Below are positions 1,979-48,449 of a stretch of DNA of 64,000 nucleotides, in pieces. Position numbers and translations under genes: made by a program. The stretch's first letter is position 1; each line of letters begins with the position of its first letter. The notes under the pieces were generated by a model. It ran no database searches, was not told the DNA's origin, and was given only the letters and a program-made list of their open reading frames with translations. The DNA comes from Prostheceraeus crozeri. Taxonomy: Eukaryota > Platyhelminthes > Polycladida > Euryleptidae. The stretch spans positions 171,625-235,624 of the forward strand of contig CAJQUW010003219.1 in NCBI GenBank assembly GCA_907163375.1. The letters are read 5' to 3'.

Positions 1979-2524
1979 TTATTTTACAATCCGCTGGGTA
2001 CGTACATACTCGATGAGATAGTCTAGGACCACATTTGCTTGTACATGAGATTTTAGTCCAGTAATGATCACTTTACTATTATTAAAGATTGCAACATGCA
2101 CAGGTAACCAACAACTAATGAGAGCTGCAGGAAAAAGTTTGGGTTCATAACACAAATTGTAACTGCTGGTACGAATCTTCAAAAATGATACACTTTCACT
2201 CAATTGAGTAGAGATCAGCACATTGTCCACAGTCAGATTCGACATCACACACCTCCCCCTCTTCCATATCCGACGTAGTAGTCTTTGTAGCTCTAAGCGC
2301 ATTGACTGCGCCGATGAATGAGAAAGGGCGCCGAGAATCTGTACAGTCCCATTTGGGAAGAGTTGAAGATTCCGTGAATTGTTCATCTTCACCACTAACA
2401 TTTGAGGTCGGCCCGGGTAATACTTGCTGTTTGGAAGGTGTTGGTGTAATGTTGCGAGATCGATTTTGGTGTAGAGTCTGAAGCGACGGAGAATGTTGAC
2501 GATGTTGTAGCGATGGCGCTTCAT
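1979..2524 (-). CDS. TATA-binding-protein-like protein (element A)
   Basis: The protein has 181 aa, about the size of the conserved TBP core, and shows the TBP two-repeat saddle pattern. Repeat 1 (about residues 13-78) has an NLQLFPNGTVQILG strand-turn-strand. Repeat 2 (about 98-181) has YEPKLFPAALI followed by VAIFNNSKVIITGLK. These match the TBP landmarks YEPELFPGLI and LIFxSGKxxxTGAK. Three of the four positions that hold DNA-kinking Phe in TBP are Phe here; the repeat-1 RF position is RP. The start is taken at the internal Met (MKRHRYN, 2524) because homology begins just after it, although the frame stays open to 2668. It overlaps a PC4-like gene in another frame by 329 bp. TBP function is inferred from fold-level similarity. 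Confidence 0.72.
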   Translation of the reverse strand: MKRHRYNIVNILRRFRLYTKIDLATLHQHLPNSKYYPGRPQMLVVKMNNSRNLQLFPNGTVQILGALSHSSAQSMRLELQRLLRRIWKRGRCVMSNLTVDNVLISTQLSESVSFLKIRTSSYNLCYEPKLFPAALISCWLPVHVAIFNNSKVIITGLKSHVQANVVLDYLIEYVRTQRIVK

Positions 2525-2846
2525 GATGAAAAAATGAGTAAATTGAGCGATGTACCTTCCTTTTATACTTTTCCCAACTACCTTGATGAAATGTGAAGTT
2601 AGTATGAAGTTGGGAATGATAGAGTTGAATTCGCCAATTGTTGACGCGCAACCATATTCGATTTCCAATACGTGAATGTCTTTTCATATAGAAGTATTTC
2701 AAATCCTTCATGATATGATGTAGAGATTGAAAATGACGATAAGATAAAGCAAACTCTCTTCTCACATTTCCAGTTGAATCTTTGAAATAGACGTTTCGAT
2801 CATGATCCGTTTCAATACGTTGTAGGGAATCTAATTTCCAACTCAT
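2196..2846 (-). CDS. PC4-like protein with acidic/Ser-rich tail (element A)
   Basis: 216 aa. Residues 1-105 contain two beta-beta-alpha-like units, the second with IGNRIWLR and GSWEKYKRKVHRSI. The first resembles the end of the PC4/p15 ssDNA-binding coactivator domain (LSYRHFQSLHHIM here; GITLTWRQF in the neighbouring paralogue). Residues 106-216 are Ser/Glu-rich and probably disordered. The 3' half lies over the TBP-like gene in a different frame (2196-2524), and both frames are kept open in A and B. The upstream paralogue (2869-3225) ends 22 bp before this start. PC4 assignment is by motif resemblance only. Confidence 0.55.
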   Translation of the reverse strand: MSWKLDSLQRIETDHDRNVYFKDSTGNVRREFALSYRHFQSLHHIMKDLKYFYMKRHSRIGNRIWLRVNNWRIQLYHSQLHTNFTFHQGSWEKYKRKVHRSIYSFFHHEAPSLQHRQHSPSLQTLHQNRSRNITPTPSKQQVLPGPTSNVSGEDEQFTESSTLPKWDCTDSRRPFSFIGAVNALRATKTTTSDMEEGEVCDVESDCGQCADLYSIE

Positions 2847-19923: not shown

Positions 19924-20427
19924 ACAGTGCATCACCTCTGTTCTTCACATTTATCTTTGAAAAGGTGGGTGTCGGTGAGCTCCTGCTATCAGGTTGTTTT
20001 GACTTGCCTTCAAGTTGAATAGTCTCTTGCTATCATTTTTATTCTGCTCATAAAACATATCACCGCTGTAATACTTCCTTTGCTCGAGCGTTCCTTCGGG
20101 ACGGCGGGTACTGCCGTAGAGGGATTGCGTTGCACGGGTTGTTCGTCGTTTGTTAGACCGAAACCTCTCAGCCGTTGCTCATGTTGGGCGTTCGACTTCA
20201 TACTCAACGTGATGCTTTCTCTCTCCAGGTCATATCATAGTACTTCAGCCATTCGACAAAGGTTAGTCTTTATGATATGGAGTAGAGTGAAATGTAAATC
20301 ATTAGATGTCACTTCAATGATTGTTCCCATGACAAACGTTGACTAGGTAAATATAGCGAATTTTATCTTTCCTTTTCAGTGATAGAAATCTGCGTTGACA
20401 AAGTCTAATTAAACCTCATCTACCAAA

Positions 20428-25405: not shown

Positions 25406-26395
25406 TGATGAATGCTTCCTCTCTGTTGTGGTTGATGTTTTGCTTTTTCGCTCCATGGCGTTTTCTATGGGGCGTTGTGAGTGAGTGCCTTGTAACATGC
25501 GTCCAACTCCTGATCACTTCATATCATGACTTACATATCAACTGGTTTTTCCTGACATTGTTTTCTCCCTGTACATGAGTGACTTTGTTTTCTCCGGTGA
25601 TGTGAGATATAAAAACTTTGCTTTCTGCTACCATCAGTATTAACTGCATGTGACTGTGATGAAAATCGATTGTGATGATGAATAACATATCATGTACATA
25701 CTGTGTTGTTTTCCTTTTGACATAAAGATGGGATTCTCACTCATTTGACGGAAGTAAAAGTTTTAATCATTTTGTAAGATGGGTAGGGTTAGAAATAAAG
25801 TTGTTGATTGTAAGTTAGAAATAAAGTTATCACCATGTCGCTGTTTGTAAGATAGGTGAAATATAAATGAAGTCAGAATCACTTCACTGTTTGTAAAGTT
25901 AGAAATAAAGTTATCAGCATGTCGCTGTTTGTAAGATAGGTGAAATGTAAATGAAGTCATAAGTATTTCACTGTTTGCAAGATAGGTAAAGTATTAATTA
26001 AAGACAAAACCATGTTAGAGTTTGTAAGTTATCATCCTCACCAACGCATGTAACATCATGACAATTTCTTCGGCTTAGGAAACATCAACCACTTTGCTGA
26101 CTCATGTCTATAAATAGCTCTGACTCATGAGATGGTAAGGCGCCAGTCATACGAATCTAATCAGTCTTGTTCAACCTTTTCACCGACACGTGTGTGGGCG
26201 TGTCATTCAACATCGATGGCGCCTCACGTCAGACAGCGTGACCTTTTCACCGACAGGTGTGTGTGTGGGCATCATTTCATGTCTATAAATAGCGCTGACT
26301 CATCATAAAGTGATGAACCTTGTTGATGACCTTTTCACCGACACGTGTGTGGGTGATAGTTCATTGCGGTGACTCATTCAAATCGCATCATGTGA
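25406..26395. promoter_or_regulatory. Repeat-rich intergenic region with TATA boxes and CACGTG elements
   Basis: About 25770-25990 holds an imperfect tandem repeat (GTAAGTTAGAAATAAAGTTATCA, about 100 bp). Two TCTATAAATAGC TATA boxes lie near 26109 and 26281. A block CCTTTTCACCGACACGTGTG recurs near 26176, 26244 (one base changed) and 26328. The regularly spaced E-box palindromes beside TATA boxes look like promoter or enhancer modules. No gene is seen. Confidence 0.5.
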
Positions 26396-26935
26396 TTAAC
26401 ACGATTCTATTAACTGTGACTCATACAGATATCGCATTAGAGATTTAACAATGTCAGCTACTTTACTGATATCACGTAAACCAGTCATGATACAATGTCC
26501 GCTGTGAAACACTGCAATATGTACAGGATGCTACTTCCGAATGAGAGCAGCAGGAAAGAGTTCAGTTTCATAAAATATACAATGATTACTGGTTTTAATG
26601 TTAGCTAGATTCACTAACATCTTCAATTGAACAGATACTACTATATTCTTCAATGTCAGGGGACTGAGGCGTAGATGAGGCATGAGTGTTCGCATTTTCT
26701 TGACGACTTCGTAACACATGGACTGCATCATGAAATGAGAAAGGATTCCTAGGACTTGGATTTTGCCGCAGCGAAAGATTTGAAGATTTCGACCGTTGCT
26801 CATGCGAATGACCAACATTTGCGGACGACCGCGATGATAGACTGAATCGGGAAGATGGGTATGCAACTGTTCTAAATCGATGTCTCTTCTGAGATTCATT
26901 TCGCGCATGGCGTTGATGATGCGGATGGGGAGCAT
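26396..26935 (-). pseudogene. TBP-like protein (element C), frameshifted near C-terminus
   Basis: Diverged homologue of 1979-2524. It contains DIDLEQLHTHLPDS, GRPQMLVIRM, NLQIFRCGKIQVLG and ETELFPAALI. The frame breaks near 26533; matching codons continue in another frame (HPVHIAVF, then IMTGL) to a stop at 26396-26398. The RP replacement of the usual repeat-1 RF is the same as in A and B, so it is a family trait and not a one-off mutation. A PC4-like frame overlaps here as well. Confidence 0.6.
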
Positions 26936-27190
26936 GACTCACAAATGACATGATGGTTGAGTGAACTTCCCTTTTATACTTTCCCATGAGGGTTTTGGAA
27001 TCACAATGTAGCAGTGATCATTATGTAGAATCATCTCTTGAATGCGAATGAATACAATGCCGTCTCCTACGTTAATGACACGGCAAGAGTTGGATAGGAT
27101 AGCGCGATGCAACCTTCGTAGATGAAAGCGTTCTAGAATTATCTGAAGTTGACGTTTCGTATCATGAAATGTAAGACACTGACTTTATCA
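26601..27190 (-). pseudogene. PC4-like protein (element C), frameshifted
   Basis: The 3' part is open from about 26987 to 26601 (KYKREVHSTIM, then a Ser-rich tail with NPFSFHDAVHVL and a C-terminal EEYSSICSIE) and aligns with the 216-aa protein of A/B (RRPFSFIGAVNAL and ADLYSIE at the end). The 5' part (VGDGIVFIRIQ) continues in another frame after a one-base loss in the A-run near 26988. The homologous tail lies over the TBP-like gene, as in A and B. Confidence 0.5.
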
Positions 27191-27372
27191 TGATACATCC
27201 TGATTATCATGATTAAAACCTGAGTGAAGAATGGTATGCCTAAGAAAGAAGGAGAGAGAGAGTCATGTTCATGTGTGGCATGGTGAGTGTACATTTTGTG
27301 TCTTGATACGGTGGCCGTTAGGCCGTGGTCTCATAAAGACCGATGGTGCATTCTCAGTGTGTGTGGAGAGTG

Positions 27373-27987
27373 TTACTGTAGTTGATCATCATCAACATGC
27401 AAGACAAGATAAGGATTCAACGTAAACAACCTTCCGTCCCTGCGCGGACCCATGTAGATGGTTTGAATTTTAATTTCGAAGGAGTAGAATCCTTTTCCCA
27501 GAATGGGGAGTGGTTTGCAATTGAGTAAGTTGAGTTCGCTGCCCTCCTTTTCATGGATGATGAGACAGTGTCTATCCATATGAACATACATCTATCGTCT
27601 TTCCATGATGGGAACTTATGGCCGCTTCCCATTGTGTCGAACAATTTCTTTGGGAATGGTGAGATTTTCTTTCAGGCATGTTTTAAGAGTATTGAATTGT
27701 AACCGTGTCCAATAGTCTAACGGCACACACACGGCCAGTCCATACTTTGTTGACATAACCTTTAGATAAGCCATCCGATGACTTGGAGGTCTTATGGTCA
27801 CGGCTTCTCCATGATGAGTTATCTTTTGATTGAAAGCATTTTTACCCGATGCCAAAGTAAGGGAGTTCAGTGTACCTAGTGCGAGAGCAGAGGAGTTGAT
27901 GGCTTCGAGCAACTGCATGGTTAGCGCAAGGACAGAAATGATTGCCATGAGCTCAGTCGTCTGTTTTATAACCAAGCCTAGCTCCAA
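27373..27987 (-). pseudogene. Possible ssDNA-binding-type conserved protein, frameshifted (element C)
   Basis: Homologue of the 204-aa protein at 31091-31865. Shared blocks are VTIRPP..LKVMSTKYGLAVCVP and later GFYSFEIKIQTIYMG..DGRLFTLN, matching WDILFKVNGLYYG and DNKIASLS. At least two frame changes occur near 27590-27640. Confidence 0.45.
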
Positions 27988-28137
27988 TCACATGCGTTTC
28001 CCTTTTCACGTTTTCCCTGTCTTTGTTATGTGACAAAGAGTTATCACACGTGAACTTTTGACTGCGTGGGTGGAAACCTTCCCTCTTACAAAGTCGTTCT
28101 GGCCCTCACAAAGACTTGAGTGACACATCCTTTCTAG

Positions 28138-28303
28138 CGAACAAAGACGCATTCATTCATCTAACAAAGAGCCTGATAGTAATGCACAAAGCGCAATGAC
28201 TCATGTTATGACACGCCCCTTTTCTCGAACAAAGACGCATTCATTTATCTAACAAAGAGTCCGATAGTAATGCACAAAGCGCAATGACTCATGTTGCTCT
28301 ATA
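28138..28303 (+). repeat. Tandem duplication, about 88 bp x 2
   Basis: CGAACAAAGACGCATTCATT begins both units (28138 and 28226), each ending CAATGACTCATGTT. It is a non-coding spacer between two decayed minus-strand genes. Confidence 0.65.
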
Positions 28304-28308
28304 CACCA

Positions 28309-28738
28309 TTACAAAATACTCAGTGAAAAGAAATCTTTATTGCATCTACACAACATGTCAACCATCAAACAAAGTCGTGGATGTAACACACTCAGTTCAA
28401 TCATCATATGTTTAACAACGTACGCATTTCCTTCCAACGTCTCTTCTATTCTCTCCATAATTTTCTCCATATGACGGACATAAAATTGATCACTAAGAGT
28501 AGTCCATTCTGTGCCATAAGATCCAAAACGAAGTGGTTTTTGCAAATCTTTCAACTCTATATAAGCAACGAGTCTACCCTTTACATCTTGAGGTTGTAAA
28601 CTCTCCATCAATCTTTAGAAGAGAGGAAGGCTTTCAGTTAGCACTACTACTTACAATCATTCATCATCATTTTAAATGTAAGTTCCAATCTTGTAAAAAT
28701 CCATCGAATCCTTGTTGATCAAGTGTCAAATGACACAT
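28309..28738 (-). pseudogene. POLB-N-domain-like small protein (element C, copy 2), broken
   Basis: The fragment from ATG 28736-28738 (CHLTLDQQGFDGFLQDW) matches the start of the intact protein at 32695. The middle is disrupted, and 28309-28611 (ELKDLQKPLRFGSYGTEW, then QFYVRHMEKIMERI) matches its C-terminal half. Confidence 0.45.
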
Positions 28739-28938
28739 GTGGTTACTTAAGGTACGATGCGCCATCATAAACGTTATGACTATAGATTTCACATTGCTTC
28801 AATGACTTCCACTATGAATAAAACAGAAATAGGAATCATGTTCCACTGCACGTTTATTCAACACCAGACAAAATTCACAAGTACAGAATACACTTCATAA
28901 AATGATCATCATTCATTCACAAGGAGTAAAAACATGTT

Positions 28939-29300
28939 TTACATAGACCCATGCTGTTGACAATAATATAGATACAGTTCATAAACGTCATAGAGACTAC
29001 AATGCCAGCGTGAAGAGAGTTTTGCAATGTAGGTAGCTTTATTTCCAGTATTACAATGGGATGGTGGTCTGTAAAGGTGATGTCTGTCACCGAAACATAT
29101 AGCCATATCAAAAATCATTTCATCTCTAAACTTCTTTTGATTACAATGCATATGATAGTCTTGTCTTACACGATCTACCCAACATGGTAAATATAAATTA
29201 TCAATGTGCAACTGAAGTGTTGTTGCTTCTCGTTCAGAATCATTTCCTAATATTCTAACAATATGAAAACCTGACAGCCACCGTTTGAAATCACTTATTA
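28939..29300 (-). pseudogene. DEDDh-type exonuclease homologue, 5'-truncated (element C)
   Basis: Matches the C-terminal two thirds of the exonuclease-like gene at 32078-32607: DFKRWLSGFHIVRI, then a LYLPCWVDRV..YH segment, and the terminal motif WHCSLYDVYELYL. HCSLYD fits H-x4-D, motif III of DEDDh exonucleases. The motif I part was not found upstream. Confidence 0.45.
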
Positions 29301-30070
29301 AATACGTTTCATTTTACGTGATTGATGTGATGCTATGTTTAGTACTGCATATGACATCATAACCACGCCTTTCGTCCGAAGGGAATATACTGAAAAGATG
29401 ACAGTCGTCAAGCAAGGTAGGTCAACACCTGATATAAAATGAAAGTAGTCACTGAGAAAGAAATAAGAAGCACTACACAAGACATTTTAATCTATCAAAA
29501 TTTCAAACATGTGAGTGGCTGACCGGCCGTGAGAAACACAGGAAACTGTTGGCCTTGCCTCCTTTTTTCTCGAGATAATGTGATCTCAGCTCCTTGAGTA
29601 AGGCAGTTAAGCGACATGCGCAATCACTTCTCATGTAAACATTCATTTGGCCTTAAATAATGTTCGGGATGTTGTTATTAAAAATTCATTTAAATTCATG
29701 AAAATTAATGTTGCAACATAAAAGTGTTTGGTATAGAAATAGTATTCCAATGCCGAGTGAAGGCCTATTGTCTGGGAGCACGCGACGCCAGTGCTTATAA
29801 TCAAAGTTCATGCACCACAAATGCCTAAGGTTCTAAGAAAATTTAAACGACTCTGTTTCTTGTTATAATTCTTGACTATCCTTTTTAGTGCTACCTATTT
29901 AACTCGTAGAGAGATGATTAGTTAAGTTAAGGGCCCTACAGACTGAATTTCAAATTTTGCATTTCTTAATCAAATGAAAATAAAAAATTAGATTGCAGTA
30001 GCCTCAAATCATTTATTCATGCATTTATTATGTTAGATACTACATGTGTGAAAATTATCCCAGAGAAATC
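29301..30070. other. No gene seen between elements C and B
   Basis: AT-rich sequence with no open frame showing homology or motifs. The last six bases before the B terminus (30065-30070) are GAAATC, the left candidate target duplication of element B. Confidence 0.4.
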
Positions 30071-30936
30071 AGTAGTAAGTAAAACTCCACCACTGGACCG
30101 CGCAAGATGGCCGCCATCGAAAAATGGTCGCTGACGTCCCCCCCCTCTGAAACGACAGAGTGTCGTGGTGGACTAGGGCGACCGCCAGGTTTTGTCTTGA
30201 GGCTATAGTGTGTGTTGTTTTTCGTGCAATCTGATGACTGTTGGGTTGTAAAATGGGCTGTTTCGAGTGGAAGCAGTGCTCGGATGTGAAAACGGAGGCC
30301 AGATTCGGATTCAGCGTGAAATTCTGCATCGGTATGGTGAATTTGAACGCAATCGGAGAGAAAAAATTTTCGCTGACGTCCCCCCCTCGGCACCGACCTT
30401 CCAACTTTGCTTCTAGTAGACGGATTTTGTCGTGCAATAGCTCGTTTGAAAGCTAAGAGTGAGAAACATTCACTGAAAGAAACGGCTTGTTTATATCTGT
30501 CTTCGTTTAGATGTGACACGCCATTTAAGATTTTGGGAGATTGGAGAAAAACGACAGAGTTAGAATTTGGACGTTTTGGGCTGTAGCGCCAAAACGAAGC
30601 ATCGGATGGGAAAACGGATTTCAGATTCGGATTCAGCGTGAAATTCTGCATCTGTATGGTGAGTTTCAAGTCAATCGGAGAGAAAAATTTTCGCTGACGT
30701 CCCCCCCCCGGCACCGGCCTTCCAACTTTGCTTCTAGTGGACGGATTTTGTCGTGCAATAGCTCGTTTGAAAGCTAAGAGTGAGACAAATCTGTCTTCGT
30801 TTAGATGTGAGACGCCATTTAAGATTTTGGGAGATTGACGATAAACGACAGAGTTAGAATTTCCCAAGAAACAGCTCCAGCGGGCGAATGAAGGCTCGGA
30901 TTGGTAAACGGAGGCCAGATTTGGAATCAGCTTGAT
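30071..30936. repeat. Left terminal inverted repeat of element B with satellite units
   Basis: Inverted relative to 13492-14397. It contains G/C-run units with the CGCTGACGTCCCCCC motif, that is, the 322-bp satellite in reverse orientation. No gene. Confidence 0.75.
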
Positions 30937-33482: not shown

Positions 33483-33822
33483 ATGGCGAAACGTAAAAGT
33501 CAAAAGTTTTCTTCAGCCATTCAAGCTCTCCGACGAATGAAAGCAAATCAGCGATACAATGCTATACGACATGCTAACGATAAATTCATTTGTGAAATTA
33601 TTTCTCATGTGAGAAAGTTGAGGACGAAGAAATTAGCACCAAAACAACGAAAGTTACTTAAGCGATATGCCACAAAATTGCGTTTCATCTCCAATCCTAA
33701 AGTCACCCTTCAAAGAAAGAGGAACTCTAACACAAAAGGGTGGTTTCCTTTCAGCAATACTTCCAATGTTAGCTCCTGTCGTGGGTAACCTATTGGGTAA
33801 TATCTTTGGCTCTAAGCGTTAA
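33483..33822 (+). pseudogene. pX/mu-like virion core protein, frameshifted
   Basis: The open frame from ATG 33483 encodes a very basic protein (AKRKSQKF, KLAPKQRKLLKR). Near 33735 the coding signal moves to another frame that encodes QKGGFLSAILPMLAP and ends at TAA 33820-33822. A basic body followed by a GGxL hydrophobic segment is the layout of adenovirus core protein X precursors, reported in adintoviruses and Polintons. The break could be a single-base indel. Likely role: condensing DNA in the virion. Confidence 0.5.
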
Positions 33823-33853
33823 TTATGCAAATGTTGAGTCTCAAAGTATTAAA

Positions 33854-34471
33854 ATGGATTTCAGACTTCAATGCGATAAAGTTCTGACTGTATCAGGTCC
33901 ATCTCATGCAGGTAAAACTGTTTTCACGCTGAATTTATTGGATAAAAGAAGGGAGTTGTTTAAGGAACCTATCAATCGAGTGATTTGGTGTTATGGTATT
34001 TATCAACCGTCGCTGTTTCAGGAATTGCAAAGTCGCAACTTTATTCGACATGAAGGAATTATTGCAGTGGATAAACTTCAGTCTAATGATGTTGTTGTAT
34101 TGGATGGTTTATTAAAAGAAAGTAAGAATTCAAAAGATGTTACAGATATGTTCACTCGCGCAGCACATCATAAAAGGTGTTTTATCATCTATATCACACA
34201 AAATTTGTTTCCTGATGGAAAAGAAGCTCGTACACAATATCTGAATACACACTATTATGCTATTTTCAAGAATCCGCGAGATAAAAGTCAATTTGAAATT
34301 TTAGCGCGACAAGTTGCACCCAGAGGATCAAAAGCCTTAATTGAAATTTTTGAAGCAGCTACTGAAAAACCATACGGTTACTTATTCATTGACTTTACGC
34401 AAGAGTGTCCGGAAGAATTTAGATTTCGAAGTGATATTTCGAAAACTCCCATGATTATCTACAAACTATGA
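33854..34471 (+). CDS. ATP: Genome-packaging ATPase (A32/FtsK-HerA type)
   Basis: 205 aa from the first ATG (33854). Walker A is GPSHAGKT, Walker B is VVVLDG, and an ITQNLFP segment fits the sensor position of A32-like packaging ATPases, a core Polinton protein of about this length. The stop overlaps the next start as ATGA (34468-34471). It would drive DNA into capsids. No lesion is seen. Confidence 0.85.
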   Translation: MDFRLQCDKVLTVSGPSHAGKTVFTLNLLDKRRELFKEPINRVIWCYGIYQPSLFQELQSRNFIRHEGIIAVDKLQSNDVVVLDGLLKESKNSKDVTDMFTRAAHHKRCFIIYITQNLFPDGKEARTQYLNTHYYAIFKNPRDKSQFEILARQVAPRGSKALIEIFEAATEKPYGYLFIDFTQECPEEFRFRSDISKTPMIIYKL

Positions 34472-35161: not shown

Positions 35162-35360
35162 ATGAAGCAGATGTGTTGCTTACCATGTAATGAACCGCCG
35201 GAGGTGAGTGTCGTTGTCACTTGCACTTGCTGAAACTCCTAAGCAATGTGAACATGATCGCAAAACCGCTAAAGCTAAATGCTGCAGTTGTTGTAAATGT
35301 AGAGAGGCAAGAAAACAAAAAGATGAGAAGGAGGAAAAAGAGTCAGTCGTCATCGACTGA
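35162..35360 (+). pseudogene. Possible small Cys-rich ORF, frameshifted, overlapping integrase start
   Basis: ATG at 35162 begins KQMCCLPCNEPPE and ends near 35230. A second frame from about 35229 carries KCCSCCKCREARKQ and ends at TGA 35358. The two Cys-rich halves suggest one small zinc-binding gene with a frame break. Weak evidence. Confidence 0.25.
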
Positions 35361-36411
35361 ACGTTTGAAGTCAATCTATTATGATGTAAAACATCCGGCA
35401 GGATTTGCATCTATCAAGAAATTATCAAAAGCGAGTGGTCTTCCACAATCACAAGTGAAACGATGGTTAAAGGGTCAGGCTACCTATACACTCCACAAAC
35501 AAGCCAAAAAGAAGTACCGCACCCGCCATTATATTGTTCATGACATCGATGAACAGTGGCAAGCAGATTTGTGCGATGTCGCCTCCATTTCAAAACATAA
35601 CTCGGGCAATAATTTTATTTTAACCGTCATTGATATTTTCTCGCGTTATGCGTGGGCTCAACCTTTAAAAACTAAAGAAGGGAAAGGAGTAGCAAAAGCA
35701 TTCCAAACAATTTTTCGAGAGGGTTGTATTCCAAAAAGAATTCAGAGTGATCAAGGAAAAGAGTTTGAAAATCAGCATGTGACAAGATTATTTGAGAGGC
35801 ATGACATTGAGTCGTTTAGTGTAAAGAGTGCTTATAAAGCTGCACTCGTTGAACGTTTTAATCACACATTAAAAAATCGCTTGTGGCGACATTTTACTGC
35901 CAACTTGACACAAAATTGGACAAAGGTTCTACAAGATACACTCCATGCCTACAATCACTCTATCCATCGTTCTATTGGACTCAGACCAGTAGATGTAAAT
36001 GCTGACAATGTAGATAAAGTGCGCGAATCATTCCAACGTAAACGCACTCATGTGAAAAGTGATGTGAAAATTGGCGATAAAGTTCGTATCTCAAAAGTGA
36101 AAAGTGTTTTTGCCAAAGGGTACCTTCCGAATTGGACAGAGGAGGTATTTACAGTATCAAGGATTAATCAAAAAGACTCTCCGACCACCTACAAGTTGAA
36201 AGATTACGATAATGAAGAAATTGAGGGTAGCTTTTACCGCGATGAGATTGAGGTAGTCACTGAAAGTGAAACATATTTGGTAGAGAAAATCATTCGATGT
36301 AAAAAACGGCAAGGTGAAGAATGGTGTCTTGTTAAGTGGACTGGTTATCCTTCAAGTATGAACTCTTGGATGCGTCGTGCCGACATCTGTCATCTAAGTG
36401 ATCGACAGTGA
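35254..36411 (+). CDS. INT: Retroviral-type integrase with C-terminal chromodomain
   Basis: The N-terminal part has an HTH-like segment (SGLPQSQVKRWLKG). The RVE core has Asp in WQADLCDV, SDQGKEF and LVERFNHTLK. The last Asp and Glu are separated by 33 residues, close to the usual 35. An SH3-like region (IGDKVRISK) and a chromodomain (YLVEKIIR..WCLVKWTGYP) follow, as in Polinton and Ty3-type integrases. The start is the first ATG (35254); 35323 (MRRRKK) is equally likely. The enzyme inserts the element with 6-bp target duplications in known Polintons. No lesion. Confidence 0.9.
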   Translation: MIAKPLKLNAAVVVNVERQENKKMRRRKKSQSSSTERLKSIYYDVKHPAGFASIKKLSKASGLPQSQVKRWLKGQATYTLHKQAKKKYRTRHYIVHDIDEQWQADLCDVASISKHNSGNNFILTVIDIFSRYAWAQPLKTKEGKGVAKAFQTIFREGCIPKRIQSDQGKEFENQHVTRLFERHDIESFSVKSAYKAALVERFNHTLKNRLWRHFTANLTQNWTKVLQDTLHAYNHSIHRSIGLRPVDVNADNVDKVRESFQRKRTHVKSDVKIGDKVRISKVKSVFAKGYLPNWTEEVFTVSRINQKDSPTTYKLKDYDNEEIEGSFYRDEIEVVTESETYLVEKIIRCKKRQGEEWCLVKWTGYPSSMNSWMRRADICHLSDRQ

Positions 36412-36452
36412 TTTATGCAAAGTTGTAACTAACAATGTTTAGGGTTTGAGCT

Positions 36453-36911: not shown

Positions 36912-38189
36912 ATGGAGTGTAAAACTTCCGGTTTTTGTTTGTTTGATCAACAAGCCATACAGACAGATATTCTTAGTTCAAGTATTGTAGATTATCATCC
37001 TCGAACAGCTGAGAATGCTGGCCCCATTGAATTTGTTATTCCTGGTGGTAGTGATGACTACATAGATTTGAGTTATGCGATGCTTGATTTGAGGTTTAGA
37101 ATTCAGCAAGCAGATGGAACTGCTATTGACAATACACATAAAGTTGGATTGAACAATTCACCATTGACTACATTACTTCGCGATGTTTCTCTAACGATTG
37201 GAGAGCAGCAGGTGGAAGGTGGTCAAAGCGATTATCCCTATAAATCATATTTCAATCATGTACCACAGTTTCATCCAGCAGCACAAAAAAGTCATATGGA
37301 AGCCATGGGATGGTACAGAGATGAAGCAGGAAAATTTGATGTTGAAACAAACAGTGGCTTTGTAAAGCGATCTGCTATGATTAAAGATAGTAGAGTATGT
37401 CAGCTATATGGTCCGCTGAATTTAGACTTCTTTAGACAGTCAAAGTTTTTACTCTGTAATACCAGCATGCGACTCAAGCTGACATTGAATAAGCCTGAAT
37501 TTGCGCTGAATGCATTTGCTAAAGTTGACAATTTTAGAATTCATGTGGAAGATATTGCACTTTACATTCGTCGAGTAGTACCGAATCCAAGTGTCATTAG
37601 AGGACATGCTGAAGGTCTTAACCGCCAAAATGCCATTTACCCCGTTCAGCATACAAAGCTTCTCACCTTTACAATTCCGAAAGATCAAAAGAGTTTCATG
37701 AAAGATGGCCTCTTTCCATCGGAATCACCGAAGCTCCTCATGGTGGCAATGGTTGAAAATGATGCATTTAATGGTAATATAAAGAAGAATCCTTTCAATT
37801 TTAAACACAATCAGTTAAGTGAAATTGCTTTACGTGTAAATGGTGTGAGTCATCCTGGTCCACCCTACAAACTAGATTTTGCTGCAGATCAATTTATGCG
37901 CAGTTATGTTGATTTTATGGATGTCTTTGGCTTTTACAAATCGGATGACACCAACGGACTCACTATGAAAGAGTTTAAGAGTGGATATACTATTTATGCA
38001 TTTGATTTGACTGCTGACAGCGATATTAGTGCCCCCTATCGTCAAGCGAACGTGCCTCATAATATTCGTTTGGATTTGACGTTCAAAAGAACACTACCTG
38101 AGACGATCAATGTATTAATTTATGCAGTCTTCGATTCAAATATTGAAATTACAAAGTATCGTGACGTGATTCTTCAGTATAATCGTTAA
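36912..38189 (+). CDS. MCP: Polinton major capsid protein (double jelly-roll)
   Basis: 425 aa, intact. The N-terminus has GPIEFVIPGGSDDYIDL; the C-terminal block has FDLTADSDIS, LRLDLTFKR-like IRLDLTFKRTLPETINV and EITKYRDVILQY. This is the widespread Polinton protein whose family was recognised as a double jelly-roll capsid protein; 425 aa fits that fold. It forms the icosahedral shell. Its TAA overlaps the protease start (TAATG), and the pVI-like gene lies 45 bp upstream. The A copy has a one-base insertion. Confidence 0.82.
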   Translation: MECKTSGFCLFDQQAIQTDILSSSIVDYHPRTAENAGPIEFVIPGGSDDYIDLSYAMLDLRFRIQQADGTAIDNTHKVGLNNSPLTTLLRDVSLTIGEQQVEGGQSDYPYKSYFNHVPQFHPAAQKSHMEAMGWYRDEAGKFDVETNSGFVKRSAMIKDSRVCQLYGPLNLDFFRQSKFLLCNTSMRLKLTLNKPEFALNAFAKVDNFRIHVEDIALYIRRVVPNPSVIRGHAEGLNRQNAIYPVQHTKLLTFTIPKDQKSFMKDGLFPSESPKLLMVAMVENDAFNGNIKKNPFNFKHNQLSEIALRVNGVSHPGPPYKLDFAADQFMRSYVDFMDVFGFYKSDDTNGLTMKEFKSGYTIYAFDLTADSDISAPYRQANVPHNIRLDLTFKRTLPETINVLIYAVFDSNIEITKYRDVILQYNR

Positions 38190-38719
38190 TGAGTTGGTTG
38201 ACTGCTGACGATATTAAGACTGAAGTGCAGCGTAATGCAGACGAAGCGACGTTGAAAGCTTTCGATAATGTCTATTCGCTCGATACCTTACCACCTGCAG
38301 TAAATCACTATCCCATCTTTATTGTGCTAAACACTCATTCGCAGAATTTAGGCGGGGAGCATTGGAAAGCGATCTTTATTGGAGAAGACCGACGTGGTGA
38401 ACTATTTGACTCTCTTGCTCAACCTCCAAATATACCAACACAGCAGTGGTTGAGAAAACATACGCGTCAATATCAGCGAAATGAACGCATACTACAACAT
38501 CCACTTTCATCAACGTGTGGTGCTTTTGTACTGTACTTCATCTTAAAACGTTTACATGTATCTCGATTTGTATCTGTTATTCAAAACTTTTCATGTAATC
38601 CATCCTCTAATGAAAAAATGATTTGTAATTTCTATCATGATTTGAAATTAAAACATCATGTTGGAAAAATTGTTTTTTATTTTACAATCCGCTGGGTACG
38701 TACATACTCGATGAGATAG
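38189..38719 (+). CDS. PRO: Adenovirus-type capsid maturation cysteine protease
   Basis: 176 codons. Catalytic landmarks are His58 (GGEHWK), an acidic residue in GELFDSL (71 or 74), Gln103 and Cys110 (STCGAFVLY), the His-Asp/Glu-Gln-Cys pattern of C48/C5 proteases. The frame overlaps the 3' end of the minus-strand TBP-like gene by 43 bp. A is shortened after codon 145. It would process capsid precursors such as the pVI- and pX-like proteins. Confidence 0.85.
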   Translation: MSWLTADDIKTEVQRNADEATLKAFDNVYSLDTLPPAVNHYPIFIVLNTHSQNLGGEHWKAIFIGEDRRGELFDSLAQPPNIPTQQWLRKHTRQYQRNERILQHPLSSTCGAFVLYFILKRLHVSRFVSVIQNFSCNPSSNEKMICNFYHDLKLKHHVGKIVFYFTIRWVRTYSMR

Positions 38720-39222
38720 TCAAGGATCAAATTTGCTTGTACATGAGATTTTAATCCAGTAATGATCACTTTACTATTATTAAAGATTGCCACATGCACA
38801 GGTAACCAACAACTAATGAGAGCTGCAGGAAAAAGTTCGGGTTCATAACACAAATTGTAACTGCTGGTACGAATCTTCAAAAATGATACACTTTCACTCA
38901 ATTGAGTAGAGATCAGCATATTGTCCACAGTCAGATTCGACATCACACACCTCTCCCTCTTCCATATCCGACGTAGTAGTCTTTGTAGCTCTAAGCGCAT
39001 TGACTGCGCCGATGAATGAGAAAGGGCGCCGAGAATCTGTACAGTCCCATTTGGGAAGAGTTGAAGATTCCGTGAATTGTTCATCTTCACCACTAACATT
39101 TGAGGACGGCCCGGGTAATACTTGCTGTTTGGAAGCTGTTGGTGTAATGTTGTGAGATCGATTTTGGTGTAGAGTCTGAAGCGACGGAGAATGTTGACGA
39201 TGGTGTAGCGATGGCGCTTCAT
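38677..39222 (-). CDS. TATA-binding-protein-like protein (element B)
   Basis: 181 aa, intact, collinear with the A copy. Repeat 1 has IDLTTLHQQLPNSKYYPGRP, then NLQLFPNGTVQILG. Repeat 2 has LCYEPELFPAALI, then VAIFNNSKVIITGLK. Both halves align with the TBP core repeats; the second keeps YEPELFP exactly. Of the four TBP intercalating-Phe sites three are Phe and one is Pro (GRPQ). The protein may recognise TATA-like promoters of the element or compete with host TBP. The start is the Met at 39222; the frame is open further upstream. It overlaps the PC4-like gene 38894-39544. Confidence 0.75.
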   Translation of the reverse strand: MKRHRYTIVNILRRFRLYTKIDLTTLHQQLPNSKYYPGRPQMLVVKMNNSRNLQLFPNGTVQILGALSHSSAQSMRLELQRLLRRIWKRERCVMSNLTVDNMLISTQLSESVSFLKIRTSSYNLCYEPELFPAALISCWLPVHVAIFNNSKVIITGLKSHVQANLILDYLIEYVRTQRIVK

Positions 39223-39544
39223 GATGAAAGAATAAGTAAATTGAGCGATGTACCTTCCTTTTATACTTTTCCCAACTACCTTGATGAAATGTGAAGTTAG
39301 CATGAAGTTGGGAATGATAGAGTTGAATTCGCCGACTGTTGACGCGCAGCCAGATGCGATTTCCAATACGTGAATGTCTTTTCATATAGAAGTATTTCAA
39401 ATCCTTCATGATATGATGTAGAGATTGAAAATGACGATAAGATAAAGCAAACTCTCTTCTCACATTTCCAGTTGAATCTTTGAAATAGACGTTTCGATCA
39501 TGATCCGTTTCAATACGTTGTAGGGAATCTAATTTCCAACTCAT
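38894..39544 (-). CDS. PC4-like protein with acidic/Ser-rich tail (element B)
   Basis: 216 aa, intact. The N-terminal half has WKLDSLQ, NVYFKDSTGNVRR, IMKDLKYF and GSWEKYKRKVHRS. The tail is Ser/Thr/Glu-rich with SFIGAVNALRA and ends DLYSIE. The last 329 bp also encode the TBP-like N-terminus in another frame. It is a paralogue of the gene at 39567-39926. PC4/p15 resemblance is at motif level; a transcription coactivator role beside the TBP-like gene is inferred. Confidence 0.55.
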   Translation of the reverse strand: MSWKLDSLQRIETDHDRNVYFKDSTGNVRREFALSYRHFQSLHHIMKDLKYFYMKRHSRIGNRIWLRVNSRRIQLYHSQLHANFTFHQGSWEKYKRKVHRSIYLFFHHEAPSLHHRQHSPSLQTLHQNRSHNITPTASKQQVLPGPSSNVSGEDEQFTESSTLPKWDCTDSRRPFSFIGAVNALRATKTTTSDMEEGEVCDVESDCGQYADLYSIE

Positions 39545-39566: not shown

Positions 39567-39926
39567 TTAAGATTTGCATAGTAGGGCGATGAACTCACGA
39601 CGAATAAATGTCATGATGATGGAGCGATGTATGTATCTTCTATACTTCTCCCAATTGTATTTGCGAAATGAGAAACAGTTTGCGGAATGAGAATGGTAGA
39701 TTTGAATTTCATTTCTGTAATGTTGAAGCCAAACTTGATCACCCAAGGAGATGAATCTTAATGTTTCAAAATATTCCAAATCCCTCATGATATCATTGAG
39801 GTTGACAAATTGTCGCCATGTTAATGTAATACCTCTTGATGCATGACCATGAGAATTTTTGAAATGTACGTTTCCATCAGGATCAACTCTGATATATTGT
39901 AGAGAGTCCAAAATCCAAGTCTTCAT
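39567..39926 (-). CDS. PC4-like small protein (element B)
   Basis: About 119 aa from ATG 39926. Contains RGITLTWRQFVNLNDIM and a second half LGDQVWLQ..EIQIYHS..YNWEKYRRYIH. The RGIxLTxxQ motif resembles the GISLTxEQW signature of PC4-type ssDNA-binding domains. It is divergently oriented to the gene at 39962 with a 35-bp gap containing AATATAAAA. One codon longer than A by an in-frame ATG duplication. Confidence 0.5.
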   Translation of the reverse strand: MKTWILDSLQYIRVDPDGNVHFKNSHGHASRGITLTWRQFVNLNDIMRDLEYFETLRFISLGDQVWLQHYRNEIQIYHSHSANCFSFRKYNWEKYRRYIHRSIIMTFIRREFIALLCKS

Positions 39927-39961
39927 GATGTTATGCAAAGTCGCAGATCAGCAATATAAAA

Positions 39962-41339
39962 ATGTCGTTTTATCATATTTTGCTTAGTAATGCGGCCGCA
40001 AATAGATTTGCTAGTAATCGAGCCGCACTCTTTTCTACTCCCATTGATCATACACAACAGCTAAATGGAAATTGGGAAGTGGGTGTCACTCAACTTGTTT
40101 ATAGCAACTGTGTCTATACTTTTGATCATGAGGTGATGACTATTAATATGAGACGTACAGCTGCTTACCAATGTGAAAAGGGCTGCCGAGTATACATTCC
40201 ACAGTGGCCAAAGAAAGATCTCTTATCATGTAAAAAGTTTATATATGATTTCCTGAATAAAGCGAGTAAACATATTGTCCAATTTACTCCGCACAATGAT
40301 GATCATACTTATGTACATCATGTAGTTGAGAAAAATTGGATTGTTGGTTTAAGCCCAAGTTTAAGAAATGATTTAGGTTACCTTGCTAGCGCCTTAACAA
40401 GCTATGATAATTTTAACGTTAATTACCACATAAGTGGTTATAAACAGTTAATATATCGAGAGGAAGCTTATTATGTAGATCTTATTCCAAGAAATGAGAA
40501 GACGTTGGTGAAGAAGATTGTGATTAAGCCAAGAAAGACAAACATGACTCCTGAAACATTATTGAAGAAGTTTAATTATCTCCTTCGAGTTGATGGTAAA
40601 CAAGTGGCAACATTGACTTATATCAAATCATCTAATCATATTGCAATAAGTAAATTAAATGATGATAATCTAGTATTAGTTTGTTCAAAAGATTTTCATC
40701 AGTTCTTACGACATCATTCTGCAGCTGTTCATGGAAAATTTGATATGCAACATTTACCATGTGAAAGGTCAAATCAATTTGATACAGAATGGACCGTATC
40801 TTTATACAGAAAGTGTGTAGGGCCCTTAGGTGGTATCTTACATGAAACAAGAGTGTTGATGCCTCGCATTATTACTTCAGTTAAATTGGTTGTAGATTAT
40901 TTAAATGAAGTGATTAATGAGCAACATATTTCATTTTCTGAAAAAGAAGGTACTTTGTTGTATTGAACTAATTATGGATAAAACTCTAATGGACATTTTG
41001 GGTTTTGATCAAGATATCTTTAAAAGTGGTGCTGTAACCAAAGCTAACGCAGACATGTCGCTATCGCGTCGTATTAACTATTTTCAGATATATTCCAATA
41101 TTGGTGAAGATGTACGTGTGGGAGATGTTGAAGCTCCATTGCTAGCAATGATACCATACCAGCCAAAAAGCTGCAGTATTTTATCTGAGCATACTTTCAA
41201 GAAAGTGCATTATACAAAGCTGAAATCAAACTACATCCCACAAATTGATATTGCAATTTATGACGATGCTGGTGCGTTGATTCCTTTTCATAAAGATGCT
41301 GTGACAAGTATCACACTCCATTTCCGAATGAAGAGTTAA
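39962..41339 (+). pseudogene. WEVGV-module Polinton protein 1, frameshifted (element B)
   Basis: Open frames 39962-40966 and 40917-41339. Near 40955 about 20 bases present in A (in the segment following EKEGT) are missing, breaking the frame. The N-terminus has NGNWEVGVTQLVYSN; the middle has RIITSVKLVVDYLNEVI; the C-terminal part DILGFDQDIF. The module repeats suggest an internal duplication shared with the next gene. Candidate minor virion protein; unproven. Confidence 0.6.
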
Positions 41340-43079: not shown

Positions 43080-46000
43080 TTATGTCAATGCATCTCCTGA
43101 ATGTGGTAGCGTGAGTTTTATTCTTTTGGGTGGAGGTATGTTTGTGTCAGGATGTCCATGTGGAAGAGATGTGTTATGTCCTATCCAACACCTCTTATCT
43201 TCCCATGCTGAAAGCGCTCGTTTCTTGAACGTGTGCGTTTTCACAGTATGAACTTGAGATTTTAAGATTGTCATATTGACAAACGTTATAGTTTTATTTT
43301 TATAGGCCTTCTTATAGGACCGATGTTTCATTTTGTGAACAATGGATTTTGATATACCTTTAGCACGCTTAATACTATCTGCACATTCTTTTAATTTCAT
43401 GGAATACATTTTAGGACGGAGGAGAATCATTTCATCTATTTCCTTTCCTGCTGTTTCATCCTTAAAACAACCAAGTTTGGCTTTATTTTGTATGGAATAG
43501 AGTGGATGAGTGGGATTGTAGTTAGATGTGTCGAAATATTTTTCTAATGACTTACCTACTTCATTAAAATTTAAATCTTTTTGAGTGGTAATTCCTAAAA
43601 AGAAACTATCTGTATCACCACCCAGCAAGCGAACCTCTTTTACGAGAGGGCATGGTTTTAATATTTTGTAGAAGAGTTGACACATTTCAAGCTTGGAATA
43701 ATCTAAAACGGCTTGCCCAATATAGATGGGTTTGCACAACTCAACTTCAGATTTTATCATTTTAACACCTACAAGATCCTCATCGATAATGTCTCTATCA
43801 ATGAAAAGAGGTGATGAGGTCAATTTGTGATATTTTTGATCATCAACGACTAGTTTGTAGTTCATACGTTTTCTAACATCCTCCATGGTCTTTCCGAAAA
43901 GACTGTTATTCTTATATTTATAAAAATCCTTTTCAAAATTATTTTGGGCGAGTGCACGTTTTTGACTGTTACTATCTATGTAAGGTTTGAGGAAGGCTTT
44001 CTGTCTAAATTTGATAATGCGGTGAACTGACTTTAGAAGCATGCCCATTTCTAAATAGAATTTTAGTATGCAGAAGTGCACGAGATAATTTTTCTTATCA
44101 TATTGGGTGAGCAAAAGTTTGCGGCATGGTTTGTACCTTGGCTGTCCACACTCTGTTAAGTTATTATGAAATTGTGACATTAATGGTGAAAACATATCTT
44201 CAGTCACTTCACCAGATTCAGGTGCGAGTGGGAAATCAGCAGTTTTATTTTTAATACTATTTGGATAAATCAAATCCACTTCAAAATAATATCCCCAATC
44301 ACCTTCATCTGGAATCTTCAGAATGTTTGAAGGGTTGGAGTAATACGTAAGCTCATCTTGATTTAAACAACTAAACTCGGAATGAGGTAGTGTTTTAGAT
44401 AGTGAACTGCCATATAAATTATTTTGGTCATAGTACTTTAGGTGGATATGATCATTACCTACTGTTTTAGATTTTGTGTGATGTTTATTCACAAATGTGA
44501 GACCACCGCGTATTCCGCGCTCAAATATGTTATACATCTCGGGGTCTTGTAAGAGATGGATGGTCTCACCAGTCATTTTAAAGGCTGATTTAAAGGACAT
44601 GGCTGGTAGATTGACAAAGTGGACAGCATCTAATTTGTCTTCTTCTAATGCCACTCGTCGAAATTCCTGAAAGACATCAGCCAGCAAAATGACATCTAAT
44701 TCTAAGTAAGCGATCATATAATCGCCAAACGTTTTACAATCAAATTTTAACCATGCCTCTTGAGCAAGTTCATAGTCCTCTACTGGACAATTTTGACCCG
44801 TCAAATCGTTTTGGAATTTGTCAATGGAAGGAAGGGTTGTTTCATTTAGTTTAGACATTGAGCTAAAATACGCATAGGGAAAGACTCCTTTGCGAGTGAT
44901 TATTTCATCCGTTAAGTTTGGATAGTGTTTCTTCAAAGTTTGACTATGAGTAAGAAACTTGGGATTACGAACGAGAGAAGCTAGTGACGCTGACATGAAT
45001 TGGAATGAATCTAAAAATTTTATTTCGAAGAAGACTGTCTTATTTTCTTTAGTTTTATCTACTGGTACTTTTGCTGTCATTGCCATGAATTTTTCCCTCG
45101 TTTGCGCTATTACATTAAACTGCCACGATTTCATCTGGCTCAACCCTCCTTTTATGAGCATATGACTGTCATAGCCCTTAAAGTTATGAAAAATGACGGG
45201 TAGAGCACGACGTCTCAACCTATGTGAAAAGTTAGATTTGGAGCAGAGTGCGTTTCTAAATTTACCAGTGATGTGATCATGATCACGCACTTTCTTAATT
45301 TTATCGTCATCAAACGTTTTATGACATTTAGGGCACGATGTGCAACTTTCAAATTTTTGTTTGTCTTCATCTGACATATGTAGTGACTTACGCTGCAATT
45401 GGGAATCATATGATTGTTGAAATTTGGCAGCTTTATCGAGAAATTCTAGAAATTTTGAAATGCAATCTTCACCTTGCCAAGTATGCATTTTGTTTTGTCT
45501 ATTCCTAAAGTGGTCATGCCATACTTCATAGCAGGATATGGCTGCTGGCTTGTGGATGATATCATCAATGTAGCATTCTATGTCTGCGTAAATGACACGC
45601 AGGGGACTTAATTCGTCACCATTATCCCTGTGTGAAAATATTTTATCTTTGGGCATGCGTTCCATTTGTAATTTACCTCGCTTGCACCATTCATAGTGAA
45701 TTTCAAATTTATCTTTACTCCAAAAGGAGCGGATGCAACGGTCGCATACAAAATGTTCAACTCTTTTAGAGTGCCCCAAGTGAGTGTACAAGCGAGAGAT
45801 TTTGGGAATACCACAGTAGTGCCATTCCTCGCTATCATCTTGTTTTACTAATAAGAGGTTGACTACACGTTCATAACAAGTTGAACGTGAATTATAGCGG
45901 GCACCCTTCAACCCCTTCTCCCACACGTGAACTACAATTTTAATCTTATTATGTTTTTCGAACGTTTCTACATCTTTGATTTTCATGTTGTTACTATCAC

Positions 46001-47054
46001 AACCTTCAAAGTATAGTTCATCCTCCCACTGTCTATAGCTATAGGTGCGATCTCGATGCGCGTTGATATCATTATAGTGAAGGATGGATAGGACTGCATA
46101 TTTGAAACACTGTGATTTACAATCGACATTGATGACAGCTTTCTTATTATACAACGTTTTTGGTAGTTTAAATGTGCCTCGAGCTGCATGACTTTCTAAT
46201 AGGGAAATTTTGAATATGGCTGAGTCCACACCATCAAAAATGAGAGCGCTGTCGCGTTGATTGAATTTATCTACATTTGATTTTAAACATTGAATGTGAA
46301 AATTTAGCCAAGACTCGCAGTCTACAACTTCGGTTGCGGAAGAGGAAGGAACATGAAACTGTATTCTCTCCGTCACTTGACCCGTTTGAAAATCTATCTT
46401 AATATATTTTAGTTTAAGGTAGATGAGCGCCTTCATTCTAAAATTGTCTAAATTGTTGAAGAGCGCTTAGATAATGTTAGAATTTTGAAGGAGCCACTCA
46501 GGAAAATCTACTATTTGAGTATTGGACTCCATGCAGTAGTCGCGTACTAAATTATTATGTGAAACATTAATGAGGGAGATGGTAGAGGTACCGTTGGTGT
46601 AGTGATCATTTACATGCGTGTGTTGAAGTCTGTGCGAAGATCGCTGAAAGTGACTATCAAAAGAAAGAGGGCACAAATCGCAAGTAAAGGAAATTTCATC
46701 GTCAGAATCAACTTCACCTCCGGAGATTGATGCCGCTTTGCGTTGACACACACGTTGTTTGATGTGTCGAAAGAGACTGTGCTTCCTTGTAAACATATGT
46801 CCGAAGTCGGCACATTCCCACTCGTTGCCATGTCGCGACAGTTCTGAGGTGGAACTCACATCACCTGAAAGAGAAATCATTCTATCATCTCTGTTCAAGT
46901 CTCAGTGTATTGTTACAACCTACTTTGACTCAACAACTCTAAACTTTCCTCGAGAAGGGAGGGCTTTGGTGATGGAGTTGATGCCTGAAATTGAGGAAGA
47001 TGCTATTAGCCACACGTTTGAGGGAGATGAGTGAAGAAATTTTCAACTTACCAT
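43080..47054 (-). pseudogene. POLB: Protein-primed family B DNA polymerase, one nonsense (element B)
   Basis: Exon 1 ends with the start codon (47054-47052) followed by GTAAGT; exon 2 is 46984-46924; exon 3 starts at 46864, all joining in frame. It has C2H2-like fingers and then an in-frame TAA at 46469-46467 (Glu in A). The remaining 1118-codon frame has an N-terminal domain, a CDRC finger, exonuclease I (YADIECY), an HNH/endonuclease-VII-like DHDHITGKF insert, exonuclease II (FKGYDSH), exonuclease III (YLELDV), motif A (DQNNLYGSS), motif B (NNSLFGKTM) and motif C (GGDTDSFF). In the insert one Cys of A (CSKCN) is Ser (CSKSN). It replicates the element by protein priming in known Polintons. 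Confidence 0.88.
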
Positions 47055-47775: not shown

Positions 47776-47833
47776 TAAATTTTTATTTCGTATTATCTTT
47801 GCTTTCATACTGACTTACTTGAATGGGGCTTCA

Positions 47834-48449
47834 GTGGATGATTTAACCATGTATACTTTTTCATTTGGAAATAGTAGCACGCTTAGTCTAACTTGTAAAT
47901 CTTATAACATTTCATATGGGCGATGATGGTAGATGAAATAGTGTTAAATAAAATTAAGATAGCTTACACTTCTGATGCAGGGATAGCAATCGACTGCGAT
48001 CCATGTGTAGAGAGCTTGTTAGACTACGGATGGGCTTAAGTGGATGATTTAACCATGTATACTTTTTCATTTGGAAATAGTAGCACGCTTAGTCTAACTT
48101 GTAAATCTTATAACATTTCATATGGGCGATGATGGTAGATGAAATAGTGTTAAATAAAATTAAGATAGCTTACACTTCTGATGCAGGGATAGCAATCGAC
48201 TGCGATCCATGTGTAGAGAGCTTGTTAGACTACGGATGGGCTTAAGTGGATGATTTAACCATGTATACATTTTCATTTGGAAATAGTAGCACGCTTAGTC
48301 TAACTTGTAAATCTTAAAACATTTCATATGGGGGATGATGGTAGATGAAATAGTGTTAAATAAAATTAAGATAGCTTACACTTCTGATACAGGGATAGCA
48401 ATCGACTGCGATCCATGTGTAAAGAGCTTGTTAGACTACGGAAGAGAGA
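47834..48449 (+). repeat. 206-bp tandem repeat, three units (one in element A)
   Basis: Units start with GTGGATGATTTAACCATG at 47834, 48040 and 48246. Element A has a single unit at about 10836, so the array expanded after the copies diverged. Short open frames in it are not supported as genes. Confidence 0.75.

Follow-up and report, generated by a model that had tools for sequence, protein, structure and literature searches.

The 64,000-nucleotide stretch of Prostheceraeus crozeri DNA analysed here (the window; contig CAJQUW010003219.1, positions 171,625 to 235,624) contains a multi-copy Polinton-type element, element B, in which the 181-amino-acid (aa) product of a minus-strand gene at 38677..39222 is identified by sequence comparison, far beyond chance, as a real homologue of the TATA-binding protein (TBP). 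The Pfam TBP profile (PF00352) matched the protein with an E-value of 1.9e-19 and 69.7 bits (cut-off 22.9), in two stretches corresponding to both TBP repeats. When solved structures were searched with phmmer, 35 distinct sequences came back at E ≤ 10, of which 34 are named TBP, TFIID or TBP fusions and one bears only the name ECU04_1440 protein; the top match was 2z8u (1e-11). Ten NCBIfam models matched, all of them TATA-box-binding protein (best 6.9e-18), none at its own curated cut-off. A sequence-only reading of the window had proposed a TBP homologue with both repeats at this position and had named profile searches as the check on it; Pfam, NCBIfam and the structure chains all gave TBP, and the YEPELFPAALI and IFNNSKVIITGLK motifs that it singled out are present in the translation. 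The assignment is further carried by a map of DNA-contact residues, described below. In the frame given, the plus strand of 38677-39222 is riddled with stops, and the coding strand is the minus strand, on which the TBP ATG sits within a 229-codon open frame (38677-39366).

Two further copies claimed for the window were borne out. The copy in element A (1979..2524, minus strand; Pfam 1.4e-19) has an intact frame and differs from that of element B at 8 of 181 residues, and the diverged copy in a C-type element (26396..26935, minus strand; genome-search row L014) carries one in-frame stop, at codon 135, with an open part at 26531-26935. Across the genome (a 2.05-Gb assembly of 14,165 contigs), the best 150 of 10,983 candidates for the TBP family were scored, a sample skewed to good matches. 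By their translations, four of these rows are host genes: two (L001, L003) represent a normal TBP in two exons on contig C9306, the core of which has human TBP as its best-scoring chains, and two (L002, L009) represent a TLF/TRF2-like gene on C3829, a name that we assign from its sequence. The remaining 146 rows were treated as element-type; 118 have an unbroken frame of at least 177 aa and 28 do not (stops or short frames). A comparison of 42 loci out of the 150 scored rows left four host loci unmatched and classified 38, with 34 nearest to B or C, three of the L005 type and one of the L010 type. TBP is carried by four diverged element classes in this genome (B, C, L005-type and L010-type).

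Protein databases were searched separately with the element B TBP as a single sequence and with a profile. The single-sequence search found 56 relatives (33-81% identity to B, on contigs of 0.7-24.7 kb), all 56 with a precomputed PF00352 annotation. The profile search gave 401 matches at E ≤ 0.001 among 1,868 candidates; all 120 among the matches listed have PF00352, and cellular TBPs are possible among the other 281. Within those 120, P0091 alone is tagged with an NCBI source, and four carry a source name, in each case TATA-box binding protein. The union of the two listings is 130 proteins. Scans of viral contigs with the element B TBP, the family alignment, alignments of the capsid and PolB-like proteins, P0091 and P0097 returned no relatives, and the comparisons therefore include no independent element from outside this genome.

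The residue map covers 135 members: the 130 database proteins, the window protein and four proteins from the same genome. Family positions were aligned via the host TBP, with yeast numbers set by motif. The yeast TBP DNA-contact positions are those of Table 1 in PMC12529657. On this map the family signature is asymmetric, with the C-lobe DNA contacts and the TFIIB stirrup mostly kept and the N-lobe rebuilt in the same way family-wide. Six of the eight C-lobe contacts are kept and near-invariant: Asn159 (135/135), Val161 (134/135), Phe190 (134/135), Pro191 (135/135), Phe207 (134/134) and Thr215 (133/134). The acidic TFIIB stirrup has Glu186, which we take to be a TFIIB contact, in 132/135 members and Glu188 in 135/135. 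The latter is named as a TFIIB contact in PMC12529657, alongside E184 in that paper's numbering.

In the N-lobe, Asn69 (114/114 where present) and Phe116 (135/135) are retained, and positions 71, 99, 101, 114, 122 and 124 are altered. Phe99 is replaced by Pro in 129 of the 132 members with a residue there (135 aligned), which extends to the family the repeat-1 Pro already noticed in the window copies. Met replaces Ala101 in 135/135, Gln replaces Leu114 in 131/135 and Val122 in 134/135, and Leu replaces Thr124 in 116/135; the Val71 position is occupied by Met (95), His (14), Leu (7) or Val (6). Because of these changed contact residues the canonical TATA specificity of the element TBPs is doubtful, while homology itself stands on the profile match.

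Sequences upstream of 75 ORFs of at least 100 aa from the four element classes were ranked for 8,410 patterns in windows from -48 to -18. TANGCAA ranked first: it occurs in 9 of the 75 windows, where 0.48 would be expected (P = 1.6e-9, or about 1.4e-5 after Bonferroni correction). In four control windows, the top-ranked patterns had P values from 3e-6 to 2e-4. The enrichment test is conservative, as many of these 75 ORFs are likely to be spurious. In the nine windows (four in B, three L005-type, one L010-type and one C-type) the motif lies 30-39 bp before the ATG. The TATA consensus is TATAWAWR, to which the motif with its usual next base aligns as T-A-N-G-C-A-A-R. Canonical TATA and TATT boxes were considered and set aside, with TATAWA found in one window (1.91 expected), TATAAA in one, TATTTA in one and TATTWA in two, none beyond chance. 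In element B, TATGCAA occurs at 39932..39938 (plus strand), 30 bp before the ATG of the WEVGV-motif gene at 39962; at 39574..39580 (minus strand), 36 bp before the ATG of OV, an ORF that overlaps the TBP gene, and inside the end of gene 39567; at 36414..36420 (plus strand), 39 bp upstream of the gene 36453 ATG; and at 33824..33830 (plus strand), 30 bp upstream of 33854, the first ATG of the ATPase-like gene, and within a longer TTG-start frame. As an alternative, the B motif may be an octamer (ATGCAAAT) bound by a host POU factor, but the L005 and L010 classes mostly have AAGCAA.

We propose, with a probability of about 0.65, that the element TBP is an element-specific RNA polymerase II (Pol II) initiation factor that directs the host machinery to a variant TATA box. 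The conserved C-lobe would bind the promoter element at its upstream TA end, with the intercalating Phe pair kept, and the YEPELFP stirrup would contact host TFIIB. The N-lobe, lacking the Phe99 wedge and carrying two near-invariant Gln residues and an invariant Met, would recognise a different sequence in the downstream half. TANGCAA, which lies at the position of a TATA box before element start codons and has a GC core, is the likely target. This motif keeps the TA step that the C-lobe Phe pair would wedge open, and its altered core would lie opposite residues such as 114 and 122, where, judging from TBP-DNA structures, Gln could form hydrogen bonds in the minor groove and guanine would be excluded by Val or Leu. 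Host TFIIB and Pol II would then start the element genes, the OV-TBP unit included; we infer this autoregulation, as we do the binding to TANGCAA and the recruitment of TFIIB. Pfam scans of the 23 element B proteins found no TFIIB or RNA polymerase subunit (E ≤ 1 / 0.5), so that host TFIIB and Pol II are presumed to be used. The placement of TBP between the protease and WEVGV genes, another claim of the sequence-only reading, holds for element B and for the L005-type class of the same genome, and this shared syntenic place counts toward an initiation factor.

Several observations weigh against this proposal. In the C-lobe, Leu205 is replaced in 134/134 members (Ala 113, Thr 17, Ser 4) and Val213 is mostly changed (Ile 108, Met 15, Val 9); the element A TBP has Lys at the Glu188 position; and the C and L010 copies of the gene are broken. 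Only 9 of the 75 windows have the motif, seven of these being in B and the L005-type, and the nine are drawn from 41 TANGCAA sites counted over the two strands of the four elements. A weaker excess is present nearby, with 4/75 at -78..-48 (P 0.0014) and 3/75 at -30..0 (P 0.013) against 0.48 expected, and the motif was first spotted in the same sequences that were used for the test. The OV site is also under the coding constraint of gene 39567. In the diverged copy L054, and also in L062, the WEVGV promoter reads CATGCAA instead of TANGCAA; in L054 two further sites lie within the WEVGV coding sequence, and the OV site is retained and overlaps the end of gene 39567.

The sequence-only reading had offered an initiation factor and a host TBP decoy as alternatives. 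The first is supported and is favoured as the more probable function because the TFIIB contacts are retained and a non-canonical motif occupies the TATA position, and the second fares less well on the same grounds. A decoy would tie up host TFIIB or TATA boxes and damp host transcription, with no promoter of its own. A protein that keeps its TFIIB-contact residues and has much of its DNA surface altered could indeed sequester TFIIB without productive initiation, but the six kept C-lobe contacts and the near-invariance of the N-lobe changes suggest a selected new specificity rather than a loss, and before element genes it is not the canonical TATA box but another motif that is enriched. We therefore consider a decoy unlikely.

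Nor is it probable that the protein serves replication or packaging, as a sequence-specific bender of DNA at terminal repeats or origins rather than at promoters. The argument for such a role comes from the C-type elements (C of the window, C6670, C11285 and C10042), which retain TBP, PolB-like sequence, genes 32695 and 32122 and, in three of four, OV, and show no match (E ≤ 1e-3 for C6670 and C11285, 1e-4 for C of the window and C10042) to the integrase, ATPase, capsid or protease in the stretches read, which reached about 9-10 kb either side of TBP, so that genes further out could be missed. This ties TBP to a replicative core, although in C11285 the PolB-like stretch is degraded. Against this role stand the retained TFIIB contacts, which have no evident replicative use, and the enrichment of a motif 30-39 bp before start codons; genes of a replicative core would, moreover, need transcription too.

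With respect to origin, the element B TBP shares 25% identity with the host TBP (37/151), 25% with human TBP, 26-27% with two archaeal TBPs, 27% with Encephalitozoon cuniculi TBP and 27% over 105 positions with the host TLF. A recent capture of the host TBP was rejected on the basis of the 25% identity. In a 31-sequence tree, all 25 element proteins formed one group (support 100), set off by a branch 2.0 substitutions per site long. Compared with the element copies, the element TBP group is old; its placement and root among cellular TBPs are not trusted because of the long branch to the element proteins.

Ratios of nonsynonymous to synonymous substitution rates (dN/dS) indicate that the TBP gene is under purifying selection. 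Between B and L054, which encodes an 83%-identical protein, dN/dS is 0.22 overall, 0.20 within the overlap with OV and 0.22 outside it. Between classes the values are 0.42 (B-C), 0.22 (B-L005) and 0.34 (C-L005), with dS high or near-saturated. The B-A pair gives 0.58 overall, above 1 within the overlap (very few changes) and 0.27 outside, and the B-L017 pair gives 0.28, above 1 (again very few changes) and 0.11, respectively. Three C copies give 0.67 and 0.74, with one pair having no synonymous change. These young C copies, together with the 28 scored element rows that have no unbroken frame of at least 177 aa, are what might be expected of a dying relic, a captured gene riding along without function. 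This explanation is highly improbable given the residues that are near-invariant family-wide, the low dN/dS of B-L054 and between classes, and the presence of TBP in four diverged classes.

The second frame over the TBP gene is open beyond chance in three classes. OV of element B (38894..39544, minus strand) is a 216-aa ORF whose C-terminal approximately 108 codons lie in the -1 frame over TBP codons 1-108; element A has a 216-aa counterpart (2196..2846, minus strand), and the C-type ORF (26601..26987, minus strand) resembles the C-terminal half of OV. Across the overlap, the OV frame is open for 108 codons in B, 112 in C (copy L028) and 101 in L005. When the TBP protein was held fixed and its codons were redrawn from element usage (2000 trials per class), frames as long as the OV overlap arose in 0/2000 recodings for B, 0/2000 for C and 0.15% of 2000 for L005. 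Similarity between OV frames, compared with 500 recoded pairs, was 97 versus 37 (standard deviation (sd) 12, maximum 81) for B-C and 142 versus 38 (sd 13, maximum 86) for C-L005; for B-L005 it was not above the recoded pairs (41 versus 32, sd 9, maximum 75). Six protein relatives of OV were found, five of which (P0059-P0063) are full-length at 49-97% identity, and P0064 covers 39%. The L010 copy has the TBP frame and no OV-like ORF.

That OV is the functional gene, with the TBP frame maintained merely through the overlap, is the least likely explanation: the rarity of such open frames among recodings, the five full-length relatives and the TBP dN/dS above 1 within the overlap in the close pairs B-A and B-L017 would fit it, but the C-lobe (codons 110-181) lies outside the overlap, where dN/dS is 0.22 (B versus L054), and the L010-type copy has the TBP frame without OV.

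OV and the gene at 39567-39938 are adjacent paralogous genes whose fold was not recognised, the latter (39567..39938, minus strand) encoding a 123-aa paralogue of the OV N-terminal domain with 42-44% identity. A PC4-type coactivator, proposed by eye, was considered for OV and not supported by Pfam, PHROGs, NCBIfam or a structure profile search; the best match of the OV profile among solved structures (0.0053) was to a chain with three repeats, none of them significant alone. Copies L012 and L016 have a single 292-codon open frame that takes in the OV start together with the complete TBP gene, which indicates that frame shifts between OV and TBP occur among copies. A core transcription factor gene that overlaps a second gene is unusual in itself.

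More tentatively, and at less than even odds, the initiation factor may belong to an orthogonal promoter system, in which a TBP with a rebuilt N-lobe would read TANGCAA, borrow host TFIIB and Pol II, be co-expressed with its overlapping partner and be kept in the minimal core of capsid-less derivatives. As a TATA variant with a GC core, TANGCAA should be disfavoured by the host TBP. Beyond the sequence-only reading, the analysis brought out the minus-strand coding, the overlapping OV, the two near-invariant Gln residues, the stop in copy C, the retention of TBP in capsid-less elements and the candidate promoter motif.

The element TBP resembles cellular TBPs (animal, archaeal and the host gene on C9306) in its two repeats, six of eight C-lobe DNA contacts and YEPELFP stirrup, and differs in having only 25% identity to the host TBP, Pro, Met, Gln, Gln and Leu at the DNA contacts of repeat 1, and a gene that overlaps another. 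The host TLF/TRF2 on C3829 likewise accompanies TBP as a further TBP-type protein whose intercalating residues are altered, but in it Phe116, Phe190 and Phe207 correspond to Trp, His and Tyr, whereas in the element family all three Phe are retained with few exceptions. A TLF/TRF2 type was rejected for the element TBP on this ground, as its intercalating Phe are not replaced as in the host TLF.

Among virus-encoded TBPs, ORF24 of Kaposi's sarcoma-associated herpesvirus (KSHV) steers the Pol II of its host to late viral promoters that carry a TATT motif, and according to PMC12529657 it has Asn at the Val122 and Thr124 positions, retains both N-lobe Phe and is without the acidic residues critical for TFIIB. 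The pattern of N-lobe Phe and TFIIB residues is thus the reverse of that in the element family, and ORF24 is a multi-domain protein of at least 752 residues. Large dsDNA viruses also encode TBPs, including giant viruses, African swine fever virus (B263R) and nimavirus (wsv303), as stated in PMC7221094, PMC11410667 and PMC10871703. Unlike these, the element family keeps its TFIIB contacts, has no TFIIB found in element B and has small carriers.

Literature searches, several covering the top of longer result lists, returned no report of a Polinton-encoded TBP. In the passages retrieved, text joining Polintons with TBP concerns mirusvirus-like elements or large viruses, and TBP or TATA is used 0 times in a double-jelly-roll virus survey (PMC11071308) and also 0 times in an animal-virus survey (PMC11071296). 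A Polinton TBP is thus likely to be absent from print, and the matches described above indicate a widespread element-encoded TBP family with a lobe-specific signature that is, as far as searched, previously unreported. TBPs encoded by viruses have been described in large DNA viruses and herpesviruses, and a Polinton-encoded one would be new. By replacing a single general factor and drawing the others from its host, such a small element would offer a compact natural test of the evolution of TBP specificity; it would test the lobe-by-lobe uncoupling of TFIIB contact from DNA reading and bear on gene control by self-synthesising elements in animal nuclei.

The Polinton-type assignment of the element is made on its integrase with chromodomain, its gene content and its terminal repeats. 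The order of genes in element B is integrase, gene 36453, capsid-like protein, protease, TBP, OV and 39567 (these three on the minus strand), WEVGV gene, further genes and the PolB-like gene (minus strand). The retroviral-type integrase (35221..36411, plus strand) matched rve (8.6e-10) and Chromo (9.1e-07), both above cut-off. The other matches were weaker: for the ATPase-like protein (33806..34471, plus strand), PHROG ATPase (0.0016) and Pfam AAA_14 (0.034, below cut-off); for the capsid-like protein (36912..38189, plus strand), a double-jelly-roll (DJR)-like match (0.0024, below cut-off), with no match of its profile to PDB chains; and for the Ulp1/adenain-like protease (38189..38719, plus strand), Peptidase_C48 (0.0017, below cut-off). 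The 3' end of the protease gene overlaps the end of the TBP gene on the opposite strand. Weak PHROG matches of the capsid-like protein to a late promoter transcriptional regulator (0.0048) and of the integrase to a transcriptional regulator (0.05) were set aside, as were weak zinc-finger matches (0.27-0.29). The WEVGV gene lies at 39962..40966 (plus strand). The 1118-aa PolB-like protein (43080..46436, minus strand) gave no PolB profile or structure-chain match and contains, by eye, GDTDSFF, which we take to be PolB motif C.

For the capsid-like protein, the best 99 of 19,328 genomic candidates were scored, the window copy included; the scored copies listed have 98-100% identity and 428-codon frames with no stops, and such near-identical intact copies indicate a recent mass amplification. 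The L005-type shows the same gene order as B in L033 and L034, with no match to 39567, and a partial one in L032, L037 and L038. In the L010-type, the protease adjoins TBP and the right part is rearranged. The C-type class is multi-copy (window 16368-30280; C6670, C11285 and C10042; L044-L049), and the right end of the window copy is approximately 90% identical to that of B.

As terminal inverted repeats, 30280-30935 matches, inverted, stretches between 56357 and 63901. The ends of the element consist of tandem units of approximately 323 bp in opposite orientation at the two ends, so that the exact ends lie in repeat arrays and their positions are not fixed; the number of units seems variable between copies (L040, L041). 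A 206-bp unit is present between element genes as three tandem copies of 97-100% identity (47826-48443), and element A has one copy, 76% identical in register. Near the right end of B, 51753-56202 has inverted repeats of approximately 350 bp (92%) and a 788-aa ORF, and is apparently a separate nested transposon.
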